Assembly (NCBI GenBank): GCA_903884265.1
Contig: CAISEG010000003.1
Location: forward strand, 1-36,870
Reading direction: 5' to 3'
Source: an uncultured Anaerolineales bacterium
GTDB lineage: Bacteria; Chloroflexota; Anaerolineae; Anaerolineales; Villigracilaceae
DNA length: 36,870 nt
Each line of letters begins with the position of its first letter. The first letter of the stretch is position 1. Positions 4,263 through 36,870 of this stretch are shown here, piece by piece. The notes below the pieces were generated by a model that ran no database searches, was not told where the DNA came from, and saw only the letters and a list, made by a program, of their open reading frames with translations. A program made the translations under genes and the position numbers.

Positions 4263-5105
4263 TTATTCTTTTTGGTCTTCAGGGGCTTGATCTGCAGCCG
4301 GTTCTTCATGGATGAGCTTGTCGATCGAAGCCAGCAGGTCAGCAGCCACCTGGGGTTTGGCCAGGATATTTTTCAGGATGCGACGGGAAGCGGGCTTTAA
4401 ACGACTGACATCCGAAAGCATTTCCACCACGTCAGCAGGATACTTTTTCTGGACAGGAACGCGCTTTGGATCCTCAAAAGAGATGTTGACCAGGCCCTCT
4501 CTTTTCAGGACGAAGAAGCCGCCTCCGAGGACGATCAACGCTAAAATGACGATCAGGATGATGTTGCCGATGTTGGTGGGAGTTTTGCCGAGGGCCACGG
4601 CATCGTATCTCTGGGAGTAATCCACCATGTCTGCAGCCGGGACAACTACTGCTGGAGCGGCCTCTGTCGTTATCGGGGCAGTGGACGAGGCAGGCTGGCT
4701 GGTCGCCGCCGCTGTCGCGCTTGCGCCGGTGCCAATCTGCTGGCCGAGGGTGGTTGCATAGATCTGAGCTTTTGCCTGGGTGTCGGAGGGGTGGCAGCTT
4801 TTACAGCTGGCGTTAATATCCGCCAACGGAGCCACCATCCCGGTGTGGGCAGCGACCTTATCAGTGGCCTGGTTGTTTCCGGCGTGACACAGGTAGCAAA
4901 AATCGCCAAAGTTGTGCTGGGTGTGCCAGGCGGTACCGTCAGTATTGACAGGCTTCTGGGCCTGCGTTTCGTGGCAGTTCTTACAGGATGAAGCCTGTGA
5001 TCCGCATTGGGCCTTCGCTGGCGTGGCGGTCATCAGGAAAACGCTGGCCACTACGAGCAGTATGCCAAGGGCCACGAACAAGAAAGTGATCCTTTTTTGA
5101 TTCAT
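4263..5105 (-). CDS. Membrane-anchored triheme cytochrome c with a cytosolic tail
   Basis: The 280-residue protein starts at 5105, where GAGGTG precedes the ATG and a Sec signal follows (residues 1-33, ending AKA). Three heme c sites are visible: CKNCH (41-45), CYLCH (70-74) and CKSCH (101-105). A low-complexity Ala/Thr/Ser/Pro linker (about 115-160) leads to a transmembrane helix at 180-200. A charged tail of about 80 residues follows and, by topology, would be in the cytoplasm. The tail resembles no domain I recognise. It is first after the ArsR gene and upstream of the transporter and reductase genes, so it probably passes electrons to or from the exported molybdenum enzyme. Extra His residues in the heme domain (H61, H64 and H87) could be second axial ligands. 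Confidence 0.85.
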   Translation of the reverse strand: MNQKRITFLFVALGILLVVASVFLMTATPAKAQCGSQASSCKNCHETQAQKPVNTDGTAWHTQHNFGDFCYLCHAGNNQATDKVAAHTGMVAPLADINASCKSCHPSDTQAKAQIYATTLGQQIGTGASATAAATSQPASSTAPITTEAAPAVVVPAADMVDYSQRYDAVALGKTPTNIGNIILIVILALIVLGGGFFVLKREGLVNISFEDPKRVPVQKKYPADVVEMLSDVSRLKPASRRILKNILAKPQVAADLLASIDKLIHEEPAADQAPEDQKE

Positions 5106-5148
5106 TTGCACCTCGTTCGAATGGATTGAAAAAAAATAATATTGGGGT

Positions 5149-5490
5149 TTATGCAGGGATGAATTCATCCATGAGATCCGCGTGATGCTGGATCTGCTCG
5201 CGCAGGACACTGCGCAGTAAATCCAGGGCTTCAATCACACGGTGGTCGGTCAGTTCATACTGGACAGAGGTTCCCAGTCGGGTGGCTTTTACCAAGCCGC
5301 CCTCCCGCAACACTTTAAGGTGGCGCGATACGGTCGACTGGGGGACTTCCAGTTCCTGGGTCAATTCAGTGACATTACGGGGCTGATCTGAAAGGGCATA
5401 CAGCAGGATGAGCCGGGTTGAATCTGCCAGAGCTGAGCACAGATCTGCATGGAGGTGGGCAATTTCTTGGGTGAGGGATGAAGTTATCAT
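5149..5490 (-). CDS. ArsR-family transcriptional repressor
   Basis: This 113-residue protein is a winged-helix regulator of the ArsR/SmtB type. The helix-turn-helix covers about residues 37-62 (NVTELTQELEVPQSTVSRHL) and the wing about 65-80 (LVKATRLGTSVQYEL). It lacks the CxC metal-binding pair of ArsR and also the two-cysteine persulfide switch of BigR/SqrR. The only cysteine is Cys18, so the sensing chemistry is unclear. It is the first gene of the leftward sulfur operon, 43 bases before the cytochrome, so it most likely represses that operon together with itself. The upstream spacer (5491-5580) is AT-rich with TATA-like boxes and carries a weak copy of the Crp-type motif seen at 6000-6014. 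A sulfur-related inducer is inferred only from context. Confidence 0.9.
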   Translation of the reverse strand: MITSSLTQEIAHLHADLCSALADSTRLILLYALSDQPRNVTELTQELEVPQSTVSRHLKVLREGGLVKATRLGTSVQYELTDHRVIEALDLLRSVLREQIQHHADLMDEFIPA

Positions 5491-5999: not shown

Positions 6000-6014
6000 T
6001 GTGACAAAGTCACA
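6000..6014. promoter_or_regulatory. Crp/Fnr-type operator palindrome
   Basis: TGTGACAAAGTCACA is a perfect palindrome around AAA, and its centre (6007) is about 41 bases before the predicted start of the DUF2892-like transcript. That is the class II activator position. It also overlaps the stop codon of the Crp-type regulator gene (6010-6012). The half-site TGTGA is what Crp recognises with Arg, Glu and Arg in its recognition helix. The neighbouring regulator has R187, E188 and R192 at those places. Confidence 0.65.
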
Positions 6015-6684
6015 CAACCGACCGGGTTTGTAAAGCCTCTCTTTCCAATATCTTGATGCTTCCCCGGGATACTTCGACCATTCCCTGAGCAGAAAAATCC
6101 TCCAGGATGCGGCTGACGACCTCACGCGAGCTGCCCAATTCAGCGGCGATCTCCTGGTGAGTGATGCGGATCGGATCCTCTCTCAGACCTCGTCCAGTAA
6201 GCAGAGAGGCGACACGGACGTCCAGGCGATGGAAGGCCACTTCTTCAACGATCTCCATCACGGAGGAAAGTCGTTGGGAGAGCAATTCGAAGACAAATTC
6301 ACGCCACAGGTCATAACGCCGGACCCAATCCCGAAAGGTATCCGCCGGAATCATAACTGCTTCGGCTTCCTTCTCCACTGTGGCAACCGCGGGGAAACTC
6401 TTCTGGCTGAGGATGGCATTGGCGGTCAGGATGCAGGATTCACCGTTCCCGAAACGGTAAAGGGTAATCTCCCGCCCTGTCTCGCCGATTTTGTAAACAC
6501 GAACGACACCAGAGATTAAAAGCGCAATTGCGTCGACCTGGTCTCCCTCGATAAATACATCGCGCCCCCTGGGAATCCGGGCGAAGGAAGCTGTCTGCTG
6601 GAATTCGCGCAGGAGTCCGGGGTCAGCATGTTCAAGGATGGGTAAGGCCTGGACAATTCGTTCGAATTGTTGTGTGGTGATCAT
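6010..6684 (-). CDS. Crp/Fnr-family transcriptional regulator
   Basis: The 224-residue protein has an N-terminal cyclic-nucleotide-binding-type beta barrel (about residues 15-115), a dimerisation helix (about 118-150) and a C-terminal Crp helix-turn-helix (174-211). The recognition helix GSSREVVSRIL keeps the Arg-Glu-x-x-x-Arg pattern of E. coli Crp, predicting a TGTGA half-site, and that half-site is found in a palindrome next door. There is no N-terminal Fnr iron-sulfur cysteine set; Cys84, in GESCILT, is the only cysteine. The effector is therefore unknown, and a redox or sulfur signal is possible from the setting. GGAGG supports the start. A TGTGACA half-site in its own upstream region (6729-6743) hints at autoregulation. 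Confidence 0.92.
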   Translation of the reverse strand: MITTQQFERIVQALPILEHADPGLLREFQQTASFARIPRGRDVFIEGDQVDAIALLISGVVRVYKIGETGREITLYRFGNGESCILTANAILSQKSFPAVATVEKEAEAVMIPADTFRDWVRRYDLWREFVFELLSQRLSSVMEIVEEVAFHRLDVRVASLLTGRGLREDPIRITHQEIAAELGSSREVVSRILEDFSAQGMVEVSRGSIKILEREALQTRSVV

Positions 6685-10833: not shown

Positions 10834-10862
10834 TTGACAATCCCCTCTTTTTTTGTTAAACT
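10834..10862 (+). promoter_or_regulatory. Promoter of the purine-catabolism operon
   Basis: A perfect TTGACA (10834-10839) is followed after 17 bases by TAAACT (10857-10862). Transcription should start near 10869, three bases before the palindromic operator. The first gene starts at 10906 with no clear Shine-Dalgarno in the 37-base leader. Confidence 0.7.
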
Positions 10863-10871: not shown

Positions 10872-10884
10872 GTTGTCAGACAAC
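10872..10884. promoter_or_regulatory. GntR-type operator, copy 1
   Basis: GTTGTCAGACAAC is a perfect palindrome around a single central base. It starts about three bases after the predicted transcription start, where bound repressor would block initiation. The core T-GTC-n-GAC-A fits the GT/AC-type palindromes bound by GntR-family proteins, and a GntR gene lies in the same operon. The exact reverse complement recurs at 36681-36693. Confidence 0.8.
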
Positions 10885-10905: not shown

Positions 10906-12294
10906 ATGACCACTCTTTTGATCAAGAATGCCACAGTTCTTGTCACCATGGACGACCGCCAGCGGGAGATTCCCGAGGGTGGTCTTTTTATACGGGACGG
11001 GTTCATCGAACAAGTCAGCCCGACAGATGAACTGCCGCAGGCGGCGGACGAAGTGCTCGACCTGCGCGGCCACCTACTCCTGCCAGGGCTGGTCAACACG
11101 CACCATCATTTCTACCAGACTCTCACGCGCGCTGTGCCGGCCGCGCAGAACGCCAACCTGTTCCACTGGCTCAAGACGCTCTATCCCATCTGGGCGCGCC
11201 TGACCCCCGACGACATTTTTATTTCGACCCAGACTGCCCTGGCGGAACTGGCGCTTTCAGGTTGCACTACAGCCGCCGATCACCTGTACCTGTTCCCGAA
11301 CGGTTCCCGTCTCGACGATGAGATCACCGCGGCACAGGAGATGGGGATGCGCGTCCAGGCCAGCCGCGGCTCAATGAGCCTGGGTGAATCGAACGGCGGG
11401 CTCCCGCCTGACTCGGTGGTGGACACGGAAGAGGCCATCCTGAAGGATTCTCAGCGCCTGATCCAAAGATACCACGACCCAAAGGCGGGGGCCTTTGTAC
11501 AGATCGTGCTGGCGCCTTGCTCGCCCTTCTCGGTGAGTGGTGAGTTGATGAAGCAGTCGGCAGCGCTGGCGCGCGAAACCGGCGTGCACCTGCACACACA
11601 TCTGGCGGAGACCGAAGACGAGCAGGAGTTCTGCCTGCAGAAATTTGGTTACCGTCCCGTGCCATACATGCAGTCGGTGGACTGGGTGGGGGAGGACGTC
11701 TGGTTCGCGCACGCAGTATACGTGGACAACGATGAAGTAAAGACCTTTGCCAGGCACGGCTGCGGCGTAGCACATTGTCCCAGCTCGAACATGCGCCTGG
11801 CTTCTGGGATCGCCCCGGTCAAAGAGTACCTGGCGGCGGGTGTGAAGGTAGGCTTGGGTGTGGACGGGTCGGCTTCGAACGACAGTTCGCACATGCTCGG
11901 TGAAGCGCGCCAGGCAATGCTTTTATCCAGACTACGGGAAGGGATTAGCGGGTTCTCCCTTTCGAACGATCCAGATCGCAAGCTAATAACGGCGCGCGAG
12001 GTCTTGAAGCTGGCAACGCGCGGCGGGGCGGCGGTGCTGGGACGCGGCGATATTGGTAGTCTCGAGCCTGGGAAATGCGCTGATTTCTTCGCGATAGATC
12101 TGAACCGCCTGGAATACGCCGGGGCGCTGCACGACCCTGTGGCTGCGGCGGTATTCTGCCACCCGGTGCGCGCCGACTACACCTATGTCGGCGGCAGGCC
12201 GGTGGTGCGAGCAGGGCGACTGGTGAACGTGGATGAAACCAAGCTGGTGGAAAAGCACAACCGGGCAGCCAAACGCTTGCTGGAGAACCAATGA
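10906..12294 (+). CDS. 8-oxoguanine deaminase (amidohydrolase superfamily)
   Basis: This 462-residue zinc amidohydrolase matches the cluster once called hydroxydechloroatrazine ethylaminohydrolase and later shown, for some members, to deaminate 8-oxoguanine to urate. Visible signatures are NTHHHFYQTLTRAV (metal ligands His66 and His68), HLAETEDE around the third histidine, CPSSNMRL and GVDGSASND with the catalytic Asp. Its length matches the family. It is the first gene of the purine operon, directly behind the GntR-type operator, and overlaps the next gene by four bases (ATGA at 12291). In this operon its product would join urate made by xanthine dehydrogenase. Related SsnA and guanine deaminases are alternatives, but the TLTRAVPAAQ and CSPFSVS segments favour the 8-oxoguanine branch. 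Confidence 0.9.
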   Translation: MTTLLIKNATVLVTMDDRQREIPEGGLFIRDGFIEQVSPTDELPQAADEVLDLRGHLLLPGLVNTHHHFYQTLTRAVPAAQNANLFHWLKTLYPIWARLTPDDIFISTQTALAELALSGCTTAADHLYLFPNGSRLDDEITAAQEMGMRVQASRGSMSLGESNGGLPPDSVVDTEEAILKDSQRLIQRYHDPKAGAFVQIVLAPCSPFSVSGELMKQSAALARETGVHLHTHLAETEDEQEFCLQKFGYRPVPYMQSVDWVGEDVWFAHAVYVDNDEVKTFARHGCGVAHCPSSNMRLASGIAPVKEYLAAGVKVGLGVDGSASNDSSHMLGEARQAMLLSRLREGISGFSLSNDPDRKLITAREVLKLATRGGAAVLGRGDIGSLEPGKCADFFAIDLNRLEYAGALHDPVAAAVFCHPVRADYTYVGGRPVVRAGRLVNVDETKLVEKHNRAAKRLLENQ

Positions 12295-12791
12295 CCGCGG
12301 TGGAAGAGATGCTGCTCGAAAAATATCTAAAGCTCCCTGACCAACTGGAGGCTGCCATTGCCGGGCTGGATGAGGACCAGCTCGACCTGAATCTTGGCAA
12401 GGGCTGGTCGATCCGGCAGTACGTGCATCACACCGTCGAAGGTGAGGTGATGTGGCAACTATTCCTGCGGGCCATTCTGGGCCAGGATGGGATCGAGTTC
12501 CCGATCCAATGGTATTTTGCCATTTCCCAGGATGAATGGGCCGAGCGTTGGGCCTCCGGGAAGAGGCTTGTTGGCCCGACCCTGGCGCTCTTCCGCGGCA
12601 GCACTGCCAGCCTGGCCGAACTGCTGCACAACATGCCGGCCAAAGCCTGGGATCATTTTGGGCGTGTGACTTGGCCAGGCAGCGACAAGGAAACCCACCT
12701 GACGGTAAGGGACATCGTCCGGATGCACCTTGGCCACACAGAGCATCACACTGCTGATATCCAGGCCATCCGGAAGGCGCACGATGTATAA
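12291..12791 (+). CDS. DinB/YfiT-family putative metalloenzyme
   Basis: This 166-residue protein has the DinB four-helix-bundle layout with a histidine metal site: H46/H47 in YVHHTVEGE and the pair H149 and H153 in HLGHTEHHTADI. Members of this superfamily include thiol-S-transferases and many uncharacterised hydrolases. The start overlaps the stop of the 8-oxoguanine deaminase, so they are translationally coupled. No function in purine breakdown is established for this family. Conserved coupling would suggest a hydrolytic or repair role, but that is speculation. The confidence applies to the family call, not to the function. Confidence 0.88.
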   Translation: MTAVEEMLLEKYLKLPDQLEAAIAGLDEDQLDLNLGKGWSIRQYVHHTVEGEVMWQLFLRAILGQDGIEFPIQWYFAISQDEWAERWASGKRLVGPTLALFRGSTASLAELLHNMPAKAWDHFGRVTWPGSDKETHLTVRDIVRMHLGHTEHHTADIQAIRKAHDV

Positions 12792-13181: not shown

Positions 13182-14972
13182 ATGCCTTTACCCATCCAAC
13201 TGACCGCCAATTTAATCGACGTGGCCATGGGCCGCAAACCGGCCGACCTGGTGTTACGCAATGGTATTTGGGTATGCGTGCAATCGGGCGAGTTTATCCC
13301 CGATACAGACGTGGCTATCAAGGACGGGCGCATTGCCTACGTTGGCCCAGACGCTTCGCACACTATCACGAAGGACACGCGGGTGGTCAACGCCGAAGGC
13401 AAGTACCTAGTACCGGGCCTGATCGACGGGCACACACACGTCGAATCGGGCATGTTGACGGTTACTGAGTTCGTGCGGGCAGTGCTACCGCACGGCACGA
13501 CCGGGATGGTCATCGACCCGCACGAGATCGCCAACGTCTTCGGGCTAAAGGGCGTCAAGCTGATGGCGGACGAAGCCGCCCGCCAGCCCATTCATATCTG
13601 GGTGGAAGTACCCTCCTGCGTGCCATCCTCGCCCGCGCTGGAGACAGCCGGAGCCGAAATCACACTTGCGGATGTGGAAGAAGCCATCCAGTGGGACAAC
13701 GTGATTGGCCTGGGCGAAATGATGAACTACACAGGTGTGGCGGCGGGGGATCCAAAGATGCTGGCTGAAATGGAGACGACCCGGCGAGCCGGGAAGGTGA
13801 TCAGCGGGCACTATGCCTCGCTGGACCTCGGGCCGGCGTTCCATGCTTACGTGGCTGGCGGCCCCGAAGACGACCACGAGGGCACCCGCCTCGAAGACGC
13901 GGTGGTGCGCGTCCGCCAGGGGATGTGGGCCATGCTGCGCTACAGCTCAGCCTGGCACGACGTAGCCGCCCAGTTACCGGCCATCACCAAGCTCGGAATG
14001 GACGCGCGGCGCTTCATCCTCTGCACCGATGATTCGCATGCCGGGACGCTGGTTAACGATGGGCACATGGACCGCATCTTGCGGCATGCCATCGCTGAAG
14101 GCCTCGCTCCCATGCTCGCGGTACAGATGGCTACGCTCAACCCGGCGGAACATTTTGGCGTCAGCCGCGAGGTGGGCATGATCGCCCCTGGGCGTTGGGC
14201 CGATATCCTGTTGGTGAAAGACCTGAAGGATTTCCATGCTGAACTGGTGCTTGTGCGCGGGCAGCAGGCAGCCGAGAATGGCAAGCTGCGCATCGACCTA
14301 CCGAAGGTGGAATACCCAGCCTGGGCGACGCAGTCCATCCATCTCAAGCATGCCTTGTCTCGGAATGATTTCCGCCTGCGAACTGCATTGAAAGCCAACC
14401 AGGTCAGCTGTAACGTCATTGGCATCATCGAGAACCAGGCGCCCACGAAACTTTTAAAGCTTGCCGTATCAGTCAAAGACGGTGAGCTCCAACTTCCGGC
14501 GGGGCTGGCCAAGCTGGCGCTGGTCGAACGGCATGCGAAGACCGGTGTGATACAGCTCGGACTGGTGAGAGGCTTCGGTCTCAGCGAAGGATGCGCCATC
14601 GCTTCCACCGTGGCTCACGACTGTCACCACATGCTGGTGATCGGGACGAGTGATGAAGATATGGCCACCGCTGCCAACAAGCTGGCTGAAACCGGCGGCG
14701 GGCAGGTGGTGGTGAAAAATGGCAAGGTGATCGGCCTGGTGGAATTAACCATCGGCGGGTTGATGTCTACCGAGCGGGCTGACGCGGTAGCTAAAAAGGC
14801 CAATACCATTCTGGAAGGCTTCCGCGCCAGCGGATGTATCATCAACAACCCGAATATGACCATGAGCCTGCTGGCTCTGCCTGTCATCCCGGAACTGCGC
14901 CTCACCGACAAGGGCCTGGTGGACGTCGCCCAAGTCAAAATCAGGCCGGTCATCGAAGGCCCAGCGGCATAG
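13182..14972 (+). CDS. ade: Adenine deaminase
   Basis: The 596-residue amidohydrolase converts adenine to hypoxanthine and ammonia. The start at 13182 (MPLPIQLTANLIDVAMG) matches the family N-terminus; a longer in-frame extension would overlap the membrane-protein gene and is rejected. Signatures are IDGHTHVES (His84, His86), IDPHEIANVFG, GLGEMMNY, CTDDSHAG with Asp283/Asp284, and the C-terminal domain with HDCHHM and a GGLMS segment. Its size fits bacterial Ade (about 560-600 residues). It is followed after nine bases by the GntR regulator. In this operon it feeds hypoxanthine to the xanthine dehydrogenase at 24203-27884. Confidence 0.95.
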   Translation: MPLPIQLTANLIDVAMGRKPADLVLRNGIWVCVQSGEFIPDTDVAIKDGRIAYVGPDASHTITKDTRVVNAEGKYLVPGLIDGHTHVESGMLTVTEFVRAVLPHGTTGMVIDPHEIANVFGLKGVKLMADEAARQPIHIWVEVPSCVPSSPALETAGAEITLADVEEAIQWDNVIGLGEMMNYTGVAAGDPKMLAEMETTRRAGKVISGHYASLDLGPAFHAYVAGGPEDDHEGTRLEDAVVRVRQGMWAMLRYSSAWHDVAAQLPAITKLGMDARRFILCTDDSHAGTLVNDGHMDRILRHAIAEGLAPMLAVQMATLNPAEHFGVSREVGMIAPGRWADILLVKDLKDFHAELVLVRGQQAAENGKLRIDLPKVEYPAWATQSIHLKHALSRNDFRLRTALKANQVSCNVIGIIENQAPTKLLKLAVSVKDGELQLPAGLAKLALVERHAKTGVIQLGLVRGFGLSEGCAIASTVAHDCHHMLVIGTSDEDMATAANKLAETGGGQVVVKNGKVIGLVELTIGGLMSTERADAVAKKANTILEGFRASGCIINNPNMTMSLLALPVIPELRLTDKGLVDVAQVKIRPVIEGPAA

Positions 14973-14981: not shown

Positions 14982-15695
14982 ATGAGTCCTTATCCATTCC
15001 GGCGCTTGCAAATTGAACTGGCAGAACTGATCCATTCGCTACCGGCTGAAGCCCGCCTGCCTTCGGAACCACTCCTGGCGAAGCAGATGGGTGTCTCACG
15101 TGCCACGCTGCGGGAGGCCATGCGCACCTTCGAGGGGCAGGGGTTAATCCGCCGCCGCCAGGGGGTTGGCACCTTCGTGGCTCCCAAGGTGCCAGTGATG
15201 GATACTGGCTTGGAGGTGCTGGAGAGTCTCGAAACAATCGCCCTGCGTTCCGGCATGACGGTCCGGATGGGCGAACTGCAGGTGGAGAAGGTTGCAGCCG
15301 ACGAAAGCCTGGCGAAGCTACTGAACCTGGAGGTGGAGGCGGAACTGACGTGCGTGACGCGCATCATCTTTACCGAACAACGCCCGGTCGCTTACCTGGT
15401 GGACACCCTACCGTTGGACATCCTGGGGGTAGAAGAGCTCGAGTCCGGTTTCACCGGTTCGGTACTGGACCTGTTACTGAAGCGCGGTGCCCCAAAGTTG
15501 ACCCAGTCGCGCACCGAGATCAAGGCCATCGGGGCTACTTCGGAAGTGGCGCGCGCCCTGCAGATCCAGCGCGACGCGGTCCTGCTCCACTTCGCAGCCC
15601 AGCTCTATGATGAGGACAGCCGCGTGGTGGACTATTCAGATAGTTATTTCCTGCCCGGTTATTTCCGCTTTCACGTGGTGAGACGGGTAGGTTAA
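14982..15695 (+). CDS. GntR-family (HutC/UTRA type) transcriptional regulator
   Basis: The 237-residue protein has an N-terminal winged helix (about residues 5-68), including LPSEPLLAKQMGVSRATLRE and the wing QGLIRRRQGVGTFV. Its UTRA ligand domain (about 85-235) ends YFRFHVVRR, as is usual for HutC-type members. AGGAG precedes the ATG by six bases. It is embedded between adenine deaminase and the carbamoyltransferase. The best target is the palindrome GTTGTCAGACAAC at 10872 and its inverse copy at 36681. No copy lies directly before this gene, so it would be autoregulated through the operon promoter. The effector is probably a purine or a breakdown product (inference). Confidence 0.92.
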   Translation: MSPYPFRRLQIELAELIHSLPAEARLPSEPLLAKQMGVSRATLREAMRTFEGQGLIRRRQGVGTFVAPKVPVMDTGLEVLESLETIALRSGMTVRMGELQVEKVAADESLAKLLNLEVEAELTCVTRIIFTEQRPVAYLVDTLPLDILGVEELESGFTGSVLDLLLKRGAPKLTQSRTEIKAIGATSEVARALQIQRDAVLLHFAAQLYDEDSRVVDYSDSYFLPGYFRFHVVRRVG

Positions 15696-15774: not shown

Positions 15775-16731
15775 ATGCGTAGTTTTGCTGGCCGGGACAT
15801 CCTGTCCCTCAAAGATTTCGAAAGGCAAGAATTCTTTCATGTTTTCGATGTAGCGGCTGAACTCGAGCCGATTGCCGTCAGCCGCCGTAATAGCGACCTT
15901 CTGGCTGAAAAAACCCTGGTGACGGCTTTCTACCAGCCATCCACCCGCACACGCTTAGCACACGAAGCGGCCATGCACCGCCTGGGCGGCCATGTGACCG
16001 GTTTCGCGGATGCCAAGATGACGCGCGCCGGTGACTTCTACCAGGAGTCGATCAAGGATACGGTAAAGATGCTGGAGTTCTATGGCGATGTAATTGTGAT
16101 GCGCCACTTCACCCAGGGCGCGCCAGCCGAAGCAGCCAAGTGGGCTTCGATCCCGATCATCAACGGCGGCGACGGCTGGGGCGAACACCCAACCCAGATC
16201 CTGACCGACTTGTACACCGTGCTGAAGGAAAAAGGCACCATCGACGGTCTTACCTGGCTGGCAGTGGGCGATATGCGCATGCGCACGATGCATTCACTGG
16301 GTTATGCGCTCAGCCAATTTGACTGCCCGATCACATTCGTTTCCCCGCCGGACATGTCGTTGACCGAGGAGTTTAAAGCCGAGCTCAAGCAATTCAGCGT
16401 CAATTTCCGTGAAGTGGAACACGTGGAGCAGGCCATAGCTGAAGCGGATGTCATCCTGGTGGAGCCGGTCGTCCAGCCGGACTATACCAAGAGCCGTGAC
16501 GAACGCGCCGGGAAAGACGTGGGCATGACCCCTGCCAACTACAAGATCACGCGCGAATTGCTCGAGACGAAGGCCAAGTCGGATGCCATTCTGCTGCACT
16601 CCCTGCCGCGCATGGACGAGGTGCCGACGGATGTGGATATCACCCGCTGGTCACGCTACTGGCAGGAAGCCTTTAACGGCGTGGTCATGCGCATGGCGCT
16701 GCTGGCATTGGTTCTGGGAGCAATGGAATAG
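15775..16731 (+). CDS. ATCase-like carbamoyltransferase with altered amino-acid-substrate site
   Basis: The 318-residue protein looks like the aspartate carbamoyltransferase catalytic chain. The carbamoyl-phosphate site is intact: STRTR (56-60), Arg110 in VMRH, and HPTQ (138-141). Arg170, in MRMRTMHSL, matches E. coli Arg167. However, the loop holding aspartate-binding Lys84 in E. coli reads TRAGDFYQES here with no lysine, and the segment equal to TRVQKER (Arg229, Gln231) reads VEPVVQP. The HPLPR motif is HSLPR (275-279). A substrate other than aspartate is therefore likely. GGAGG supports the start. Position before a second carbamoyltransferase and carbamate kinase suggests catabolic use: phosphorolysis of a carbamoylated purine breakdown product to carbamoyl phosphate. 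Calling it pyrB would be premature. Confidence 0.85.
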   Translation: MRSFAGRDILSLKDFERQEFFHVFDVAAELEPIAVSRRNSDLLAEKTLVTAFYQPSTRTRLAHEAAMHRLGGHVTGFADAKMTRAGDFYQESIKDTVKMLEFYGDVIVMRHFTQGAPAEAAKWASIPIINGGDGWGEHPTQILTDLYTVLKEKGTIDGLTWLAVGDMRMRTMHSLGYALSQFDCPITFVSPPDMSLTEEFKAELKQFSVNFREVEHVEQAIAEADVILVEPVVQPDYTKSRDERAGKDVGMTPANYKITRELLETKAKSDAILLHSLPRMDEVPTDVDITRWSRYWQEAFNGVVMRMALLALVLGAME

Positions 16732-16791
16732 AATTATTAGTAGGAGCACGAAACATTGTGTCCCTATTAGTCAGATTTCGGAGATAAAAAT

Positions 16792-17772
16792 ATGCAAACC
16801 TTTTTACATGGCCGTGACTTGATCGGCGACTTGGATTTTACGAAAGAAGAAGTTGAAACCGTCCTGGACGTGGCATTCGACCTGAAGCGCAAGCGCGCCT
16901 TGAACGAGCCACATCCTTACCTGCGTGACAAGGTGCTGGCGATGCTATTCTTCTTCTCGTCCACCCGCACGCGCGGTTCGTTCGAAGCTGGCATGGCCCA
17001 ATTGGGCGGTCACGGTGCGTTCATCGAAAGCAAGTCCACACAGATCTCACACGGCGACACACCCAAAGAGATCGGGGAAATTTTCGGCCGGTACTACGAT
17101 GGCATCGCCATCCGCCACGTTGACTGGGGCATCGGCAACAGCTATCTCAACGCGGTCGCCAAGGCCTCGCGGGTCCCGGTGCTCAACATGCAATGCGACA
17201 TCTACCATCCCTTCCAATGTCTGGCCGACCTGATGACCATCGTTGAGAAAAAAGGCCGCGACCTGCGGCGTAAGAAGATGGTGGTTTCGTGGGCCTACGC
17301 GGCTTCGTACCAGAAGCCGATGTCGGTGCCGCAGTCGCTGATCCTGCAAATGCCGCGCTTTGGCCTGGACGTGGTACTGGCGCACCCGCCCGAATTCAGG
17401 TTGATGCCTGAGATCATGGAGCAGGCCCAGGAACAGGCCCGCAAGTTCGGAGCCGGTTTTGAGGTCACGGATGACATGGAAGCCGCTTTCAAGGATGCGG
17501 ACATCGTCTATGCCAAATCTTGGGGCGCAATGGTCCACACTCCTGACCCGGAAGAGGGCGCCAAGATCATCAAGAAGTATTCGCACTGGATCACCGACGA
17601 AAAGAAGATGAAGCTTGCCAAACCGGATGCCATCTACATGCACCCGCTGCCAGCCGACCGCAACATCGAGGTCACGGATGGTGTGATGGACGGGCCACAG
17701 TCGGTGGTGTACGATGAGGCTGAGAACCGCATGCATGCCCAGAAGGCTGTTATGGCCCTGACGATGGGCTAG
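16792..17772 (+). CDS. Knotted-group carbamoyltransferase, N-acetylornithine-carbamoyltransferase/YgeW-like
   Basis: The 326-residue protein has STRTR (57-61), HPFQ (139-142) and a C-terminal half strikingly like acetylornithine carbamoyltransferase: VYAKSWGA, then DGVMDGP and DEAENRMHAQKAVMA. The proline-containing segment WAYAASYQKPMSVPQS (167-182) resembles the loop of the knotted AOTCase/SOTCase/YgeW group. The usual HCLP substrate motif is HPLP (284-287), so the second substrate probably differs from ornithine derivatives. GGAG precedes the ATG. YgeW sits in urate-degradation clusters of enteric and gut anaerobes beside carbamate kinase. This gene is 12 bases before carbamate kinase and in the same purine setting, so a comparable role is the favoured inference. 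YgeW is longer (about 396 residues). Confidence 0.82.
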   Translation: MQTFLHGRDLIGDLDFTKEEVETVLDVAFDLKRKRALNEPHPYLRDKVLAMLFFFSSTRTRGSFEAGMAQLGGHGAFIESKSTQISHGDTPKEIGEIFGRYYDGIAIRHVDWGIGNSYLNAVAKASRVPVLNMQCDIYHPFQCLADLMTIVEKKGRDLRRKKMVVSWAYAASYQKPMSVPQSLILQMPRFGLDVVLAHPPEFRLMPEIMEQAQEQARKFGAGFEVTDDMEAAFKDADIVYAKSWGAMVHTPDPEEGAKIIKKYSHWITDEKKMKLAKPDAIYMHPLPADRNIEVTDGVMDGPQSVVYDEAENRMHAQKAVMALTMG

Positions 17773-17784
17773 GAGATGGAAGGC

Positions 17785-18738
17785 ATGAGTAAAAAAGTTG
17801 CTGTTATTGCCGTCGGCGGGAATTCCCTGATCAAAGACCCGAAGAACGTGACGGTCGAGGACCAGGAAGTGGCTCTGCGCGAGACATCCCATCACATCGC
17901 CGACATGATCGAAGCCGGCTGGGATGTGGCCATCGGGCACGGGAACGGCCCGCAGGTTGGGTACATCCTGCGCCGGTCCGAGATCGCTGCGAAAGTGGAG
18001 GGCATGCACGAGGTGCCGCTGGACGTGTGCGGCGCGGACAGCCAGGGTGCGATCGGCTACGAGTTCCAGCAGGCGATGCAGAACGAACTGCATCACCGTG
18101 GAATTAAAAAGAATGTTTGCACCATAGTTACCCAGACCTTGGTGGACCAGAACGACAAAGCCTTCAAGAATCCTACCAAACCGATCGGCGGGTTCATGGA
18201 TGAGACCGAGGCCAAACGGCGTGAGAAGGAGATGGGCTGGTCGGTGGTGGAAGATGCCGGTCGCGGCTGGCGGCGCGTGGTGGCCTCCCCAATGCCAAAG
18301 GAGATCGTTGAGTTCGACTCGGTCAAGACCTTGATCGATTCCGGCGTGGTCGTAATCACGGTTGGCGGGGGCGGCATCCCGGTCATCGACGCGGGGCATG
18401 GCGAATACCGCGGAACCGCGGCGGTGATCGATAAGGACTTTGCCTCCAGCCTTCTGGCGCAGAACATCCATGCCGACCTGTTCCTGATCGCCACGGCGGT
18501 GGAGAAAGTTGCCATTAATTTCGGCAAACCCGACCAGAAATGGATCGACCGGATGACCCTGGCTGAAGCTAAAAAATATCTGGCCGAGGGCATCCACTTT
18601 GCCAAGGGTTCGATGGCTCCCAAGATCCAGGCCATCATCTGGTACCTCGAAACGGGCGGCAAGGTCGCCCTCATTACCAATCCTGAGAATATCGGGCGCG
18701 CCCTCAAAGGCGAGACCGGTACCTGGATAGTGCCGTAG
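17785..18738 (+). CDS. arcC: Carbamate kinase
   Basis: This 317-residue enzyme makes ATP from carbamoyl phosphate and ADP, releasing carbamate that decays to ammonia and CO2. Signatures are AVGGNSLI near the N-terminus, GHGNGPQVG, VEFDSVKTLIDSGVVVITVG and AVIDKDFASSLLA. The second ATG (17785) is chosen, because AGGAG at 17771-17775 sits nine bases before it and touches the first ATG (17776). The gene follows the carbamoyltransferase by 12 bases. It has no arginine deiminase or arginine/ornithine antiporter neighbour, so the carbamoyl phosphate is unlikely to come from arginine. It would be the energy-yielding end of purine catabolism here. Confidence 0.95.
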   Translation: MSKKVAVIAVGGNSLIKDPKNVTVEDQEVALRETSHHIADMIEAGWDVAIGHGNGPQVGYILRRSEIAAKVEGMHEVPLDVCGADSQGAIGYEFQQAMQNELHHRGIKKNVCTIVTQTLVDQNDKAFKNPTKPIGGFMDETEAKRREKEMGWSVVEDAGRGWRRVVASPMPKEIVEFDSVKTLIDSGVVVITVGGGGIPVIDAGHGEYRGTAAVIDKDFASSLLAQNIHADLFLIATAVEKVAINFGKPDQKWIDRMTLAEAKKYLAEGIHFAKGSMAPKIQAIIWYLETGGKVALITNPENIGRALKGETGTWIVP

Positions 18739-18889: not shown

Positions 18890-20149
18890 ATGTTTCGCAA
18901 AATCGCTTTGCGTGTCACCATAATCTCGATTATTCTTGTTATGATCGCGGCGTCTTGCACGCCAAAGCCAGTGACTAACGCCACGACGGTACCAGTGACT
19001 ATCGCCACGACGGTACCAGAGACTGTTGGCGGTTTCCAAATCCCGGAGGTCGAGCAAGGCAAGTTTAATATTGCCGCAGTCTTAATTGGCCCACATGACG
19101 ACGGCGGTTGGTCCCAGGCCCATTACGAGGGGCTGGTCTATGTTGAGCAGAATGTCCCCAATGTGCATGTGTCATATATCGAGAATGTTCCCGAAGGTGC
19201 CGATTCTGAGCAGGTTTTCCGCAGTCTAGCCCGCAAGGGATTCAACCTGATCATCGGGACCTCCTTCGGTTACATGGACCCGATGGCCACCGTGGCAGAG
19301 GAATACCCGGATATCACGTTCATCCATATCAGCGGCTACAAGTCCAACATGAAGAACTTTGGCAACCTGTTTGGCTCCATGGAAGATATGAAGTACCTGG
19401 CCGGGATGCTGGCCGGCTCACGGGCCAAATTGGATGGCAATCCCAAGCTCGGTTACATGGCGACCTTCCCCATTCCAGAGGAATTGCGCCTGGGTAATGC
19501 TTTTGCGCTCGGGATGAGAAAGACCTGCCCGGAGTGCACGATGGATGTACGCTGGATCAGCACCTGGCACGATCCTGTGGCTGAGAAAGATGCGGCAGCC
19601 TCGCTCTTTGATGCCGGCGCCCAGGTTGTCCTGACCGGCGCGGATACACCGGCAGTGGCGGATGTTGCTCAAACGAAGGGCAAATGGGGCATCACCTATG
19701 ACTATATTGGTTCCTGCAAAGTGGAGCGCTGCCTGACCACGATCTATTGGAACTGGGGTCCCATTTATGCCAAAGTCGCCCAGGGCGTGATCGCCAAGAC
19801 CTACAAGCCAGGCTTCGATTATTTCGATGCCGATAGCGGCAGCCTGGGACTGTATGGCTTCATGCAAGGACAAACCCTGACCACAGGCGAAGCTGCTCTG
19901 CCAGCAGCTGATATCCAGATGGTCAGAGACATTCTGGCACAAATGCTGGCGGGCACGTTCAACCGCTTCGATGTCTTTTCCGGCCCGATCAATGACAACA
20001 AGGGCAATGTGATTGTTGCGGCTGGCGAGAAATTCGTCCAGGCAGACCTCGACCAGTTCCCGCCCGGAGCACCCGGATTGGAATGCACCCACTGCATGTA
20101 CTGGTGGGCTGAGGGCATCACCGCCGAACTTCCTTCGCTAACTCCGTAA
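18890..20149 (+). CDS. BMP-family purine-nucleoside-binding lipoprotein of an ABC importer
   Basis: The 419-residue protein has a lipoprotein signal (IAASC, lipid cysteine 23), a Thr/Val-rich linker containing a two-unit eight-residue repeat, and then the BMP (PnrA/NupN) fold beginning FNIAAVLIGP near residue 60. DDGGWSQAHYEG and the FGYMDPM region are characteristic of the family. Characterised members bind guanosine, inosine, adenosine or related nucleosides for ABC import. GAGGAGG precedes the ATG by nine bases. The ATPase and two permeases follow, separated by a strong hairpin that could keep this subunit's message in excess. Its place in a purine-degradation operon supports purine nucleosides, or possibly nucleobases or urate, as cargo. 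Confidence 0.9.
   Translation: MFRKIALRVTIISIILVMIAASCTPKPVTNATTVPVTIATTVPETVGGFQIPEVEQGKFNIAAVLIGPHDDGGWSQAHYEGLVYVEQNVPNVHVSYIENVPEGADSEQVFRSLARKGFNLIIGTSFGYMDPMATVAEEYPDITFIHISGYKSNMKNFGNLFGSMEDMKYLAGMLAGSRAKLDGNPKLGYMATFPIPEELRLGNAFALGMRKTCPECTMDVRWISTWHDPVAEKDAAASLFDAGAQVVLTGADTPAVADVAQTKGKWGITYDYIGSCKVERCLTTIYWNWGPIYAKVAQGVIAKTYKPGFDYFDADSGSLGLYGFMQGQTLTTGEAALPAADIQMVRDILAQMLAGTFNRFDVFSGPINDNKGNVIVAAGEKFVQADLDQFPPGAPGLECTHCMYWWAEGITAELPSLTP
18971..19018 (+). repeat. 24-bp tandem duplication in the lipoprotein linker
   Basis: Two adjacent 24-base units (18971-18994 and 18995-19018) differ at one position and encode VTNATTVP and VTIATTVP. They lie in the flexible linker between the lipid-anchored cysteine and the binding domain, where slippage would change tether length without breaking the reading frame. 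Confidence 0.85.
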
Positions 20150-20173
20150 GCTTCCATCAACAACAAGTAAATG

Positions 20174-20201
20174 GGGCCAGAATCCTTCAGGATTCTGGCC
20201 C
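20174..20201 (+). other. Strong hairpin between lipoprotein and ATPase genes
   Basis: GGGCCAGAATCC (20174-20185) pairs perfectly with 20190-20201 around a TTCA tetraloop. No T-run follows directly, so it may be a leaky terminator or a 3' stabiliser. Such structures commonly let a binding-protein message accumulate above that of the membrane components. Confidence 0.8.
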
Positions 20202-20287
20202 TACCCTGTCATTATTTCTATTCTTATTACTGCACTTGGGTGAGATTACCAACGAGTTGAGACTTGGCTCGCCGCAGGAGCGACAAA

Positions 20288-21895
20288 GTGGAAATCAATC
20301 AAACGGAAACAACCATTCCGTCCATTGAAGAGAAGGGCTCCCTGTTTGTGGAGATGCACAGCATTGTCAAACGCTTTCCGGGCGTGCTGGCAAACGATCA
20401 TATGGATTTCGATGTGCGCCATAGCGAAATCCATGCCCTGCTGGGTGAAAATGGGGCGGGCAAGAGCACTTTGATGAATATACTGGCCGGACTCTACCAA
20501 CCTGAATCCGGTGTGATCAAAGTCAAAGGAAACGAAGTTAAATTTACCTCCCCGCGGGATGCCATCCAGGCTGGCATCGGGATGGTGCACCAGCACTTCA
20601 TGCTGGTACAAACGCAGACAGTCACCGAAAACATCCAGCTTGGATTGGACAAACCCCGCTTTTTCATGAATCTGCGCGAATTAGATCGTGAAGTAGCGGG
20701 ATTAAGCGAACGGTTTGGGTTGAAAGTGGATCCACGCGCCAAGATCTGGCAGTTATCTGTTGGAGAACAACAACGCGTCGAGATCCTGAAAATGCTTTAT
20801 CGCGGTACAGACATTCTGATCATGGATGAACCCACCGCGGTCCTGGCCCCGCAGGAGATCAACGATTTGTTCAAGACCCTGCGGGCAATGGTGGTAGAGG
20901 GGAAGTCAATCATCTTTATCAGCCATAAATTACAAGAGGTTATGGCCATCGCAGACCGTATCACAGTACTCCGCAAGGGCAGGGTAACCGCGGCGGGGTT
21001 GGACGCCAAACAAACTACTCGCCCGGAGTTGGCCCGGCAAATGGTGGGTCGGGAAGTGATTTTTCAGCTGGACAAGAAACCAAAAGAGCCCGGCAAAACG
21101 GTATTGCAGGTTAATGATATACACGCAGAGAACGATAAAGGTCTGCACGCCTTGAACGGTGTGTCGTTGAATGTATGCGCGGGAGAGATCGTTGGTGTGG
21201 CGGGCGTGGCGGGCAATGGCCAGCGGGAACTTGCCCAGGTCATCACCGGTTTACGCAAATGTACGAGCGGGGAAATCTCGCTCAGCGGAGAAAAGCTGAC
21301 CAATCGTTCGGCCCTTTTTGGAATCCTGCGGGGTATTGCGCATGTGCCGGAAGACAGGACCCGTGTTGGTACTGCGCCTGATTTGAGCGTGACCGACAAT
21401 GTCATCATGAAACAGTATCGCCTGCCTCCAATCGCACGGCACGGGATGTTAAGCATGCCGGTTGCAACCAAGTTCGCCAACCAGTTGAAGGCAGACTATG
21501 ACATCATCGTTCCGAACGTTGAGACCCCGGTCCGGTTGCTTTCGGGTGGAAACCTGCAAAGGGTAATCCTGGCACGCGAGATTTCAGGCCAACCTTCCTT
21601 ACTAGTGGCCGTACAACCAACTCGCGGGTTGGATGTTGGCGCAATCGAAGGAGTACACCGGCTCCTGTTGGCACAACGGGAGGCAGGGGCAGCCATCCTG
21701 CTCATTTCGGAAGAGCTGGAAGAACTACTGTCGCTCAGTGATCGCGTTTTCGTGATCTATGAAGGGCGCATAATGGGTGAAATCAATATCAGAACGAGCG
21801 AAACGACCGATGAACTGATCGAAACGGTTGGCCTGATGATGACCGGAACCCCGCTGGACCAGATCCACACAGGAGAAGCTGTAAGAAATGTCTGA
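20288..21895 (+). CDS. ABC importer ATPase, nucleoside type (NupO/YufO-like, tandem ATPase domains)
   Basis: The 535-residue protein has two ABC domains in one chain, as in importers with BMP-family binding proteins. The first domain has Walker A GENGAGKST (residues 53-61), signature LSVGEQQ and Walker B ILIMDEPTA. The second has the degenerate nucleotide loop GVAGNGQREL, signature LLSGGNLQR and a Walker-B-like segment LLVAVQPTRGLD in which the usual Asp-Glu pair is absent, as is common in this subfamily. GTG at 20288 is chosen because GGAG precedes it by seven bases, whereas the upstream TTG has no ribosome site. The gene overlaps the first permease by eight bases. It powers purine nucleoside uptake. 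Confidence 0.92.
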   Translation: MEINQTETTIPSIEEKGSLFVEMHSIVKRFPGVLANDHMDFDVRHSEIHALLGENGAGKSTLMNILAGLYQPESGVIKVKGNEVKFTSPRDAIQAGIGMVHQHFMLVQTQTVTENIQLGLDKPRFFMNLRELDREVAGLSERFGLKVDPRAKIWQLSVGEQQRVEILKMLYRGTDILIMDEPTAVLAPQEINDLFKTLRAMVVEGKSIIFISHKLQEVMAIADRITVLRKGRVTAAGLDAKQTTRPELARQMVGREVIFQLDKKPKEPGKTVLQVNDIHAENDKGLHALNGVSLNVCAGEIVGVAGVAGNGQRELAQVITGLRKCTSGEISLSGEKLTNRSALFGILRGIAHVPEDRTRVGTAPDLSVTDNVIMKQYRLPPIARHGMLSMPVATKFANQLKADYDIIVPNVETPVRLLSGGNLQRVILAREISGQPSLLVAVQPTRGLDVGAIEGVHRLLLAQREAGAAILLISEELEELLSLSDRVFVIYEGRIMGEINIRTSETTDELIETVGLMMTGTPLDQIHTGEAVRNV

Positions 21896-23030
21896 GACCT
21901 TGCCAATTCAAACTCCCCTTCGAAACAAACGCTTCCCTTTTCACCTGAATATCGAACCACGCTTGAGCGAACCGCCGCGTTGGTATCCGGTTGCGGTTTC
22001 CCTGGGAGCCATTCTTGTGGCGCTCATCATCGGTGGCATCATGATCGCTTTTGCCGGAGGGGATCCATTCCGTTCCTACCTCCATATTGCGGAAGCTTCT
22101 TTTGGCAGTATTGGCGTCCTGTCGGATACCATTGTCAAAGCGACACCAATCCTTCTGACGAGCCTGGCGTGTTCGATCGCGTTCCGCATGCGCTTGTGGA
22201 ACATCGGTGCGGAAGGCCAGTTCATCATGGGGGCATTTGGAGCCAGCGCCATTGTATTGACCCCGATCCTGCCTGAAAATACACCCGCCTGGATCTTCAT
22301 CCCTGTCATGATCCTGGCTGGGATGCTGGCGGGCGCATTATGGGGTTTGATCCCTGGATTATTAAAGGCGTTCTTGAATGTGAACGAAATCATCAGTTCC
22401 CTGATGATGAACTACATTGCCATCGCGTGGGTCAACTTCTTCGTCTTTGCGGTATGGACGGAGGGCGGGTTCCAGATGACACACCAGTTTGCCAGGAACG
22501 CATGGCTCCCCCGTCTCCTGGATTATGCAAGTACCATCCCGGTGTTGCGAGGCCTGACAACCCACCTGGGATTTGTTTTTGGGGTCGTGGCGGCGGTGAT
22601 CCTATGGATCATCATTTATCGCAGCCGCTGGGGGTATGAAATCCGCCTGATCGGAGACAATAAACACGCCGCCCAATACGCCGGCATTAACATTACCAGC
22701 AATATCGTACTTGTCATGATGGTTTCGGGTGCGCTGGCTGGGCTGGGGGGCATGTCCGAGGTGGCAGGCGTGGTACATCGTCTACAAACATCCCCTGTTG
22801 CGGCAGGTTATGGCTTTACCGGGATCATTGTTGCTTGGCTGGCGAAGTTGAACCCACTCGTGGCCATCCTGGTGTCGATATTGTTCGGTGCCCTGATACT
22901 TGCCGGGCGGGAAATCCAACCATCCGGCGTTCCCAAAATGATCCAAGGGGTTATTCTAGTATGCCTGATCGCCAGTGACTACTTACTGCGTTATCGAGTT
23001 ACCATCGTGCGCACCGGAAAGGAAGCCTGA
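21888..23030 (+). CDS. ABC importer permease 1 (NupP/YufP-like)
   Basis: This 380-residue integral membrane protein belongs to the BPD_transp_2 (LivH/RbsC-like) fold used by nucleoside importers. After a polar N-terminus (about 33 residues) there are roughly nine hydrophobic helices. Family landmarks are LWNIGAEGQFIMGAFGA (about residues 104-120), NEIISSLMMNYIA and YGFTGIIVAWLAKLNP. The start overlaps the ATPase stop by eight bases, and the second permease begins four bases after its stop, so all three are translated together. It would form half of the membrane channel with the product of 23034-24005. Confidence 0.93.
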   Translation: MSETLPIQTPLRNKRFPFHLNIEPRLSEPPRWYPVAVSLGAILVALIIGGIMIAFAGGDPFRSYLHIAEASFGSIGVLSDTIVKATPILLTSLACSIAFRMRLWNIGAEGQFIMGAFGASAIVLTPILPENTPAWIFIPVMILAGMLAGALWGLIPGLLKAFLNVNEIISSLMMNYIAIAWVNFFVFAVWTEGGFQMTHQFARNAWLPRLLDYASTIPVLRGLTTHLGFVFGVVAAVILWIIIYRSRWGYEIRLIGDNKHAAQYAGINITSNIVLVMMVSGALAGLGGMSEVAGVVHRLQTSPVAAGYGFTGIIVAWLAKLNPLVAILVSILFGALILAGREIQPSGVPKMIQGVILVCLIASDYLLRYRVTIVRTGKEA

Positions 23031-23033
23031 GAC

Positions 23034-24005
23034 ATGCAAGCAATCATCAATATCCTGCAGGCAGGTGTGGCGTCAGGTACGGTGCTCTTGTTCGCAACCG
23101 TTGGTGAACTCTTCGCTGAACGTTCCGGTGTGATGAATCTGGGAGTGGAGGGGATGATGCTGATGGGGGCGATGAGCGCGTACAACGTAGCGGTCGCTAC
23201 GGGAAATCCATGGCTGGGGGTATTGGTAGCGATGCTCGCGGCGGGTCTGCTCAGTCAGGTGCATGCCTTCATTACCATCACCTTGCATGCCGACCAGGTG
23301 GTGAGCGGGCTCTCACTGACTTTCCTGGGAACCGGCATCAGCCTGGTACTGGGTGAAGGCTTAAGCAAGGCTGGGACGGTATCCCTTCTATCCTCCTTTT
23401 CAATACCACTGCTCGCCCAAATTCCGGTGCTTGGGCCTATTTTCTTTGCAGATCAGAGTGTAATGGTATATATCGGTTATTTGTTGATCCCACTGGCTTG
23501 GTATTACATCAATCGCACCCGGCCGGGTATGCACCTTCGTGCGGTGGGTGAACACCCGGCAGCCGCCGACGCCCTGGGAATCAACGTGTCTCTCCTGCGC
23601 TATTTCTATGTGTTCGTTGGCGGTTTACTGGCAGGCCTGGCGGGAGCCACGATCAGCCTGGCGGTTTCTCCGGGATGGTTCAGCGAACTGACCACCGGCG
23701 GACAGGGCTGGATCGCGGTCGGTCTGGTCATCTTCGCCCAGTGGAACCCTATGCGTGCTGCAGTTGGATCCTATACGTTTGGTGCACTGCGACGCCTGAT
23801 CCTCGATATTCAAGGACCCACAACCCTGCTTGGCATGCGCAACCCTTTTTATTACAATCCTTACTGGGGTTTCTTCCTGCAGATGATCCCGTATGCCTTT
23901 ACCATCATTGTGCTGGTAATTGGTTCGCGGGAGGCCATGCGCAAGCGCCTGGGAGCACCGGCAGCATTGGGGACTCCTTACATCCGGGGTGAGAGAGGCT
24001 TGTAA
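23034..24005 (+). CDS. ABC importer permease 2 (NupQ/YufQ-like)
   Basis: This 323-residue membrane protein is the second BPD_transp_2 permease of the nucleoside importer. The N-terminal segment GELFAERSGVMNLGVEGMMLMGA (split across helices 1 and 2) is the hallmark of the YufQ branch, followed by about eight more helices. The motif GEHPAAADALGINV in a cytoplasmic loop is the likely coupling-helix region that contacts the ATPase. The gene starts four bases after permease 1. The spacer after it (24006-24202) separates it from the xanthine dehydrogenase genes and may hold a second promoter. Confidence 0.93.
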   Translation: MQAIINILQAGVASGTVLLFATVGELFAERSGVMNLGVEGMMLMGAMSAYNVAVATGNPWLGVLVAMLAAGLLSQVHAFITITLHADQVVSGLSLTFLGTGISLVLGEGLSKAGTVSLLSSFSIPLLAQIPVLGPIFFADQSVMVYIGYLLIPLAWYYINRTRPGMHLRAVGEHPAAADALGINVSLLRYFYVFVGGLLAGLAGATISLAVSPGWFSELTTGGQGWIAVGLVIFAQWNPMRAAVGSYTFGALRRLILDIQGPTTLLGMRNPFYYNPYWGFFLQMIPYAFTIIVLVIGSREAMRKRLGAPAALGTPYIRGERGL

Positions 24006-24179
24006 GGTTTCGCGTGCCATCATCTTTCATGGGGGAGTGGGATTTCCATTGTTGATCCATACACCTCGAAGAATGAGGTTGCATAGGTTCGGTAGTTGTT
24101 GCAGCGAAACAATTCCCCTTTGCAAAGTCGTTGGGTTGTGAACTTTTCGAAACGGGCCACCGGCCCATCAATTATCAGG

Positions 24180-24185
24180 TAGAAT
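24180..24185 (+). promoter_or_regulatory. Candidate -10 box before the xanthine dehydrogenase genes
   Basis: TAGAAT would start transcription near 24192, leaving about ten bases before the ATG at 24203, where no Shine-Dalgarno is visible. No clear -35 box is seen. A small GGGCC-acc-GGCCC stem lies upstream at 24154-24166. The pair may have its own promoter or be read from the ABC genes. Confidence 0.35.
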
Positions 24186-24202
24186 ATTTTAACCAAGAAT
24201 TT

Positions 24203-25075
24203 ATGAACCTTTGGCAGCAATACCTTCGCCCACGTAGCCTAACGGAAGCCCTCCAGGTACTTCATTCTGCCCCCAGCCCAGTGCGGGTCATTGCAGGCGG
24301 GACTGACCTCATGCTGGATCTGAAACAGGGTCGTCTGCCACCTGTCCACACGCTGGTGGATCTCACCGGTATTTCTGAGATGAACGTGATCGAAATTCGG
24401 GGGAAGGAGCTGTTTATCGGGGCGGCTACACCGCTCAGCCAGATTGCCACCTCACCGCTGGTGGAGGAACATGCCCGGGCACTGACAGAAGCCTGCGGCC
24501 TGATCGCTGGTCCCCAGGTTCGCAACGTGGCGACGCTGGGTGGGAATGTTGCCCATGCCCTCCCGGCGGCAGATGGGACGATCGCCCTTACCGCCCTGGG
24601 CACGCAGGCGCTCATCGTGGACCTTAATGGTCGACGGCGCCTTCCCCTGGCCGAGCTCTTCCTAGGGCCGGGAGAGACCGCGCTCAAGGTTGGCCAGGAA
24701 CTCCTGGAAGGGTTCTACCTGCCTTTGTGCAGTACCGGCCAGGCTTCAGCCTTTAATCGGGTAATGCGCGTCCAGGGAATTGCCCTGCCCATCCTGAACC
24801 TGGCAATCTGGCTGGAAAGGAAAAACGGCAACATTTCGCAGATCCACATTTCTGCCGGACCTTCCGGTCCGACCCCGCGGCGGTTCCCAAAGACTGAAGA
24901 AGCCCTGTGCAGGCAACCTTTTACCTCCGAATTCTGCGAGCGTGCCCTGGTTATCATGCTGGACGAAGTGCATTTCCGGGCCAGCCCTCACCGCGCCAGT
25001 TCTGAGTACCGCCAGCATCTGGCCGCAGTTCTACTGCAGGATACCCTGAAGACTGTCTGGCAGCGAGCGAGATAA
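24203..25075 (+). CDS. Xanthine dehydrogenase FAD-binding subunit
   Basis: This 290-residue protein is the FAD subunit of a molybdenum hydroxylase (CoxM/XdhB type). ATG at 24203 (MNLWQQYLRPRSLTEAL) fits the family start; upstream residues in frame look random. FAD-binding motifs are VIAGGTDLMLDLKQGR (about residues 32-47) and the region PQVRNVATLGGNVAHALPAADG (split around residue 112), followed by the C-terminal CO_deh_flav domain. It accepts electrons from the iron-sulfur/molybdenum chain encoded 10 bases downstream and passes them to NAD or another acceptor. No Shine-Dalgarno is visible, so near-leaderless translation is possible. Purine specificity is inferred from the operon. Confidence 0.9.
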   Translation: MNLWQQYLRPRSLTEALQVLHSAPSPVRVIAGGTDLMLDLKQGRLPPVHTLVDLTGISEMNVIEIRGKELFIGAATPLSQIATSPLVEEHARALTEACGLIAGPQVRNVATLGGNVAHALPAADGTIALTALGTQALIVDLNGRRRLPLAELFLGPGETALKVGQELLEGFYLPLCSTGQASAFNRVMRVQGIALPILNLAIWLERKNGNISQIHISAGPSGPTPRRFPKTEEALCRQPFTSEFCERALVIMLDEVHFRASPHRASSEYRQHLAAVLLQDTLKTVWQRAR

Positions 25076-25085
25076 CAGGAATTTC

Positions 25086-27884
<2,799 letters not shown>

Positions 27885-36671: not shown

Positions 36672-36677
36672 TATAAT
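36672..36677 (+). promoter_or_regulatory. -10 box of the PLP-enzyme gene
   Basis: Consensus TATAAT ends three bases before the second operator copy, so transcription would start inside the operator. The -35 region is weak. The ATG follows at 36726 with AAGGAG at 36709-36714. Confidence 0.6.
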
Positions 36678-36725: not shown

Positions 36726-36870
36726 ATGACTTCAATCGACCTGAGCCTGCATAAAGACCGCCGCGCCCGCGCCATCCAGCGCGCCCGCGAGCAAAAGATC
36801 GTCATCCCCACCTTCGCCCAGATGAAAGACCCGGCAAAGATCCCGGCCAAAGTAAAAGAAACGCTTACTG
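36726..36870 (+). CDS. Partial PLP-dependent (cysteine-synthase-like, fold type II) enzyme
   Basis: The first 48 codons are present and the gene leaves the window. The N-terminus (MTSIDLSLHKDRRARA, then IVIPTFAQMKDPAKIP) matches what I recall of a group annotated as pyridoxal-phosphate-dependent protein subunit beta, a TrpB/cysteine-synthase-fold family related in fold to diaminopropionate ammonia-lyase. The PLP lysine lies beyond the window, so this rests on the N-terminal pattern. AAGGAG supports the start. The shared operator at 36681 ties it to the purine operon. In gut urate degraders a PLP ammonia-lyase (YgeX) handles 2,3-diaminopropionate, so this gene could fill a similar step; that is inference. 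Confidence 0.7.
   Translation, partial: MTSIDLSLHKDRRARAIQRAREQKIVIPTFAQMKDPAKIPAKVKETLT

Follow-up and report, generated by a model that had tools for sequence, protein, structure and literature searches.

A conserved palindrome as the probable operator of a UTRA-type GntR regulator of purine catabolism in Anaerolineales

According to Suvorova et al. 2015 (PMC4494728), GT and AC are 3 nt apart in the majority of FadR-type GntR operators and 4 nt apart in the majority of HutC-type ones, the latter spacing being typical rather than strictly defining, with known exceptions in the subfamily. No HutC-type regulators from Chloroflexi were among those analysed in that comparative study. The regulator described here resembles the GntR/HutC repressors NagR/YvoA and DasR in its GntR winged HTH and its UTRA domain. 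These proteins are reported to repress a catabolic regulon by operator occupancy (PMC4333415, PMC4918961), which is the likely case here as well. Differences concern the spacing, which is mostly 4 nt in HutC sites and 3 nt in the Anaerolineales site, and the regulated process, with amino-sugar use there and purine catabolism here. PdhR, LldR and GlcC of the FadR subfamily share the GT-N3-AC operator (PMC4494728), and PdhR provides the closest solved HTH to the N-terminus of the regulator; however, these proteins carry an FCD-type C-terminal domain instead of UTRA.

With regard to gene content, the closest described system is the reductive uric acid pathway cluster of E. coli (xdhD-ygfK-ssnA-hyuA-ygeW-ygeY-ygeX), in which the PLP lyase YgeX is the last enzyme of the pathway (PMC12507026). 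Common to such clusters and the Anaerolineales loci are a xanthine-dehydrogenase-type enzyme, carbamoyltransferases and carbamate kinase, furthermore YgeY, which adjoins gntR in many relatives, and, in one genome (G048), a dihydropyrimidinase encoded close to the PLP gene. In contrast, none of 61 genomes contains a YgeX above the cut-off of NF006058 (276 bits), an unassigned PLP enzyme is co-regulated instead, and regulation in Anaerolineales probably involves a UTRA GntR. An earlier description of an Anaerolineales purine regulon was not found in the open-licence literature, and the present analysis offers a specific, testable one for a mostly uncultured bacterial order.

The palindrome and its promoters in the window

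The window, i.e. the whole stretch of 36,870 nt that was analysed, is one contig (C3) of a MAG comprising 1,657,884 bases in 194 contigs (71% complete). The relevant features are as follows:

10834..10862, + strand: promoter P1, read directly, with -35 TTGACA (10834-10839), a 17-nt spacer and -10 TAAACT (10857-10862)
10872-10884, no strand assigned: operator O1, GTTGTCAGACAAC, over or just past the expected +1 of P1
10906..12294, + strand: 8-oxoguanine deaminase, first gene of the operon (NF006055, 683 bits, cut-off 532)
12291..12791, + strand: DinB/YfiT-like protein (PF12867)
13182..14972, + strand: adenine deaminase (TIGR01178, 528 bits, cut-off 472)
14982..15695, + strand: GntR regulator with HTH and UTRA domains (PF00392, PF07702), proposed binder of O1 and O2
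15775..18738, + strand: aspartate-carbamoyltransferase-like, ornithine-carbamoyltransferase-like and carbamate kinase genes (TIGR00670, PRK00779, TIGR00746)
18890..24005, + strand: BMP-type (nucleoside-like) ABC importer with binding protein, ATPase and two permeases (PF02608; best matches NF047930, NF047929 and NF047928, under cut-off)
24131..27884, + strand: xanthine-dehydrogenase-type molybdenum hydroxylase, FAD subunit followed by a fused Fe-S/Mo subunit (XdhB- and XdhA/PucD-type matches under equivalog cut-offs)
36672..36677, + strand: -10 box TATAAT of promoter P2, nearly invariant among relatives
36681-36693, no strand assigned: operator O2, GTTGTCTGACAAC, 3 nt past the -10 TATAAT
36726..36870, + strand: 5' end of a fold type II PLP enzyme gene, cut by the contig end (about 488 aa in relatives)

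O1 heads a co-directional run of purine-catabolic genes, gntR, carbamoyl genes, the importer and the xanthine-dehydrogenase-type enzyme, with a small ORF between the DinB-like and the adenine deaminase gene, while O2 lies in the short gap before the PLP gene. At the other end of the window (79-5234), a divergent cluster encodes an Fe-S protein, a Tat-signal molybdopterin oxidoreductase and two YeeE-type sulphur transport proteins.

The first-pass annotation had reported identical palindromes at 10872 and 36681, and both copies proved to be exact and located at these coordinates. A pattern search of the assembly for GTTGTCnGACAAC (GTTGTCwGACAAC) revealed exactly two exact copies, both inside the window, compared to 0.09 copies per genome and 0.002 per window expected from the base composition, which gives a probability of about 2e-6 for at least two copies in the window. 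With two mismatches allowed, 46 sites were found genome-wide compared to 91 for the reversed control, i.e. no over-representation. Accordingly, near-exact sites alone are informative, and a site with two mismatches at 33245, within a PatB-like gene, was dismissed as chance.

Each palindrome had also been described as following a -10 box by a few bases. This was confirmed, O2 beginning 3 nt past its -10 box and O1 9 nt past the TAAACT of P1; an alternative -10 box, TATAGT at 10868, runs into O1. The TTGACA...TAAACT/TACACT arrangement of P1 recurs in named relatives. In the aligned promoters of relatives two layouts were observed, with the operator either right after the -10 box and thus over the +1, or across the -35 box (TTGTCTGACAATTGAC). 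The latter replaces the position at +1 in some genera (Bellilinea, Anaerolinea), while the promoters of several relatives comprise both positions together. The centre base of the operator is nearly always A or T. A location next to the -10 box or across the -35 box is where a steric repressor sits.

Conservation of the palindrome at its two targets

The comparison covered 80 loci (1.34 Mb) of named Anaerolineales genomes, with gntR homology as the sole criterion of selection; Bellilinea caldifistulae, Anaerolinea thermolimosa, Thermanaerothrix daxensis and Ornatilinea apprima were among the sources. Within these loci, each of the 1,024 odd palindromes with arms of five bases was counted. TTGTCnGACAA ranked first with 77 sites in 67 of the 80 loci, the runner-up occurring in 21 loci, and permutations of the TTGTC half-site gave between 0 and 17 sites each. 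All but one of the 77 sites precede the first gene, that of 8-oxoguanine deaminase, by 20-160 bp. In these 76 cases the operator precedes the operon that encodes the regulator, as expected of autoregulation.

In an exact-match scan of 61 genomes, almost every member of the genus to which the MAG belongs had sites, and in relatives these repeatedly lie at the same two targets with a -10 box just upstream. The scan of the genome and its relatives proposed in the first-pass annotation thus yielded two exact copies in the own genome and recurrence at the same two targets elsewhere. The motif is not frequent and unrelated to promoters, the outcome named there as refuting the proposal; it is rare and promoter-linked, and different genera and families keep it at the same two genes. 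In two genomes of family f7 (G042 and G055) the site precedes the 8-oxoguanine deaminase gene, yet a gntR ortholog was not found. Their contigs stop at or within adenine deaminase, just short of the usual place of gntR, and the missing gene may be due to an assembly gap. Some core sites of relatives lie within coding sequence, namely in genes for XerC-like recombinases (L085, L088, L097, L104), which counts against the proposed role; these sites were set aside.

Orthologs of the PLP gene, the second target, were found in 47 of the 61 genomes. The exact 11-bp core occurs upstream of it in 28 of 37 genomes with gntR compared to 0 of 9 genomes without gntR (Fisher P 4e-5, a value that overstates independence, as the genomes are related and phylogeny is uncorrected). 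In the one family member that possesses the PLP gene without a gntR ortholog (G015), a decayed site, TTTGTCTGAAAAA, follows the TATAAT. The gene order could account for two of the genomes with gntR in which the PLP gene has no operator of its own: in G048 and G049 it comes directly behind the purine/importer run, preceded by the importer genes, a threonine-synthase-like gene and a glycosyltransferase gene, and in G048 no gap after the ATPase gene exceeds 41 bp. The same order was found in G040 on a contig without gntR. The core is also absent from the PLP gene in G012, G011, G030 and G053. In the window, G013 and G027, other genes split the PLP gene from the purine operon, and it has its own operator. 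Altogether, there is a tendency for the PLP gene either to belong to the operon or to have an operator of its own, and this speaks for a genuine functional link.

Two relatives (G002, L086/L150; G004, L096/L158) contain a second copy of promoter and operator upstream of the PLP gene, representing a local duplication, which in G002 also includes a short 5' gene fragment.

The regulator and the rival explanations

The gene at 14982-15695 encodes an N-terminal GntR winged HTH (PF00392, 4.9e-14) and a C-terminal UTRA effector domain (PF07702, 2e-23), both above cut-off, while an HMM scan of the protein gave no match to the FCD domain of the FadR subfamily. The HMM scans of window proteins revealed no further GntR gene, in agreement with the earlier statement that the only one of the window lies in the first operon. 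The nearest PDB match to the HTH is that of PdhR, whereas over the full length YvoA matches best. The recognition segment, S-R-x-x-L-R-E-A, does not vary among 35 GntR orthologs.

Based on these data, the palindrome is a real operator and very likely belongs to the GntR of the window, the attribution made in the first-pass annotation. This attribution is well supported by the autoregulatory position, by the co-occurrence of the core with gntR at the PLP gene and by the lack of FCD-type proteins in three site-bearing genomes. Two aspects had been missed: the wider regulon in relatives and the mismatch between spacing and UTRA domain. The conserved site, GT-CNG-AC, shows the 3-nt spacing of the FadR type and not the 4 nt typical of HutC/UTRA regulators (PMC4494728), which speaks against the GntR as binder. 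If it does bind, it would be a UTRA regulator with FadR-type spacing, consistent with its PdhR-like HTH, and would provide a case in which operator spacing tracks the DNA-binding domain and not the effector domain.

The same mismatch could be taken to mean that the operator is real and bound by another regulator, for example an FCD/FadR-type GntR, since GT-N3-AC is the spacing of that subfamily (PMC4494728). FCD proteins were found in 54 of the 61 genomes, including two in the own genome, and the f7 genomes G042 and G055 carry the site without a detected gntR ortholog. On the other hand, FCD proteins were not detectable in G002, G007 and G056, all of which bear the site, and in nearly every locus the site precedes the operon that holds gntR. 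The UTRA GntR itself has a PdhR/FadR-like HTH with the invariant recognition segment. An FCD-type binder is therefore disfavoured and considered unlikely. The Crp-like regulator of the window (6010-6684) was rejected as well, since none of the 80 loci contains a relative of it.

Accordingly, the preferred explanation is still the GntR of the window, and GTTGTCwGACAAC is probably the operator through which it represses, as a dimer, its own purine operon and the PLP gene until a purine metabolite releases it. Without inducer, a dimer on each palindrome would block RNA polymerase where transcription of the two units begins, or at the -35 box in those genera in which the operator lies there. Both the operon encoding GntR, by negative autoregulation, and the PLP gene at 36726 would thus be repressed. 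Binding of a metabolite of purine breakdown to the UTRA domain would then release the repressor.

Repression rather than activation is suggested by the position of the sites, since a protein bound across -35 or +1 should keep the polymerase off the promoter, and by the good -35 and -10 boxes of the promoters, which need no activator. The position across -35 instead of +1 in Bellilinea and Anaerolinea could be cited for an activator or dual regulator, but such a role is judged highly improbable. That the identical palindromes are chance or a repeat without regulatory role, to which the lack of enrichment of the two-mismatch motif could point, is a practically negligible explanation, refuted by the expected counts, the ranking in the 80 loci and the site positions, as the same promoters keep the palindrome across families while their flanks diverge.

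The PLP enzyme and further probable targets in relatives

The complete PLP orthologs (G002 and others) comprise about 488 aa of fold type II, and in an alignment of 27 sequences the identity to the first one is 69-93%. Their best profile matches are cysteine synthase (CysK)/CBS-type, far under the equivalog cut-offs. An identity as YgeX (2,3-diaminopropionate ammonia-lyase) was therefore rejected. YgeY gave no match above cut-off in the own MAG, which is 71% complete. By analogy to the uric acid clusters, it could be guessed that the PLP enzyme fills the YgeX step or acts on serine, but the threonine-synthase-like neighbour is another candidate. A more far-reaching reading, given here as a tentative idea with a small chance of being correct, would be that a chimera-like GntR, in which FadR-type 3-nt recognition is combined with a UTRA sensor of the HutC type, responds to an intermediate of purine catabolism and couples the degradation of purine bases in Anaerolineales to a highly conserved, previously unassigned fold-type-II PLP enzyme that replaces YgeX (diaminopropionate or serine to pyruvate and ammonia). 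The operator data link an uncharacterised PLP enzyme family, with about 70-90% identity across relatives, to nucleobase breakdown. Remoter homologs of the enzyme and its orthologs (L150, L290, L291), with 37-52% identity, occur in other Chloroflexota families.

In eight well-assembled relatives, a genome-wide search for the core TTGTCwGACAA gave 54 sites compared to 9 for the reversed control. The core was observed before pyrimidine-nucleoside phosphorylase in three genera (L331, L337, L344), in a serA-like/serC divergon in two genera (L325, L345), and upstream of SHMT or an SHMT-GcvT fusion (G034, G043, G053; L110, L108, L313), the fusion protein comprising 983 aa in L110. Other promoter-proximal targets are carbamate kinase, lipoproteins resembling importer binding proteins, a GltD-like Fe-S reductase, YgeY and a class-V aminotransferase. 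The additional targets in relatives are thus nucleoside, glycine/serine (one-carbon) and ureide functions.

The own genome contains a third exact core site on another contig (C56, 18293; L142), located 24 bp before trmD and across its likely -35 box, and the same arrangement was found in G027 (L329). In G023 (contig C10, L326), the core also lies upstream of another UTRA-type GntR gene, at a distance of about 12 kb to the gntR of the purine operon.
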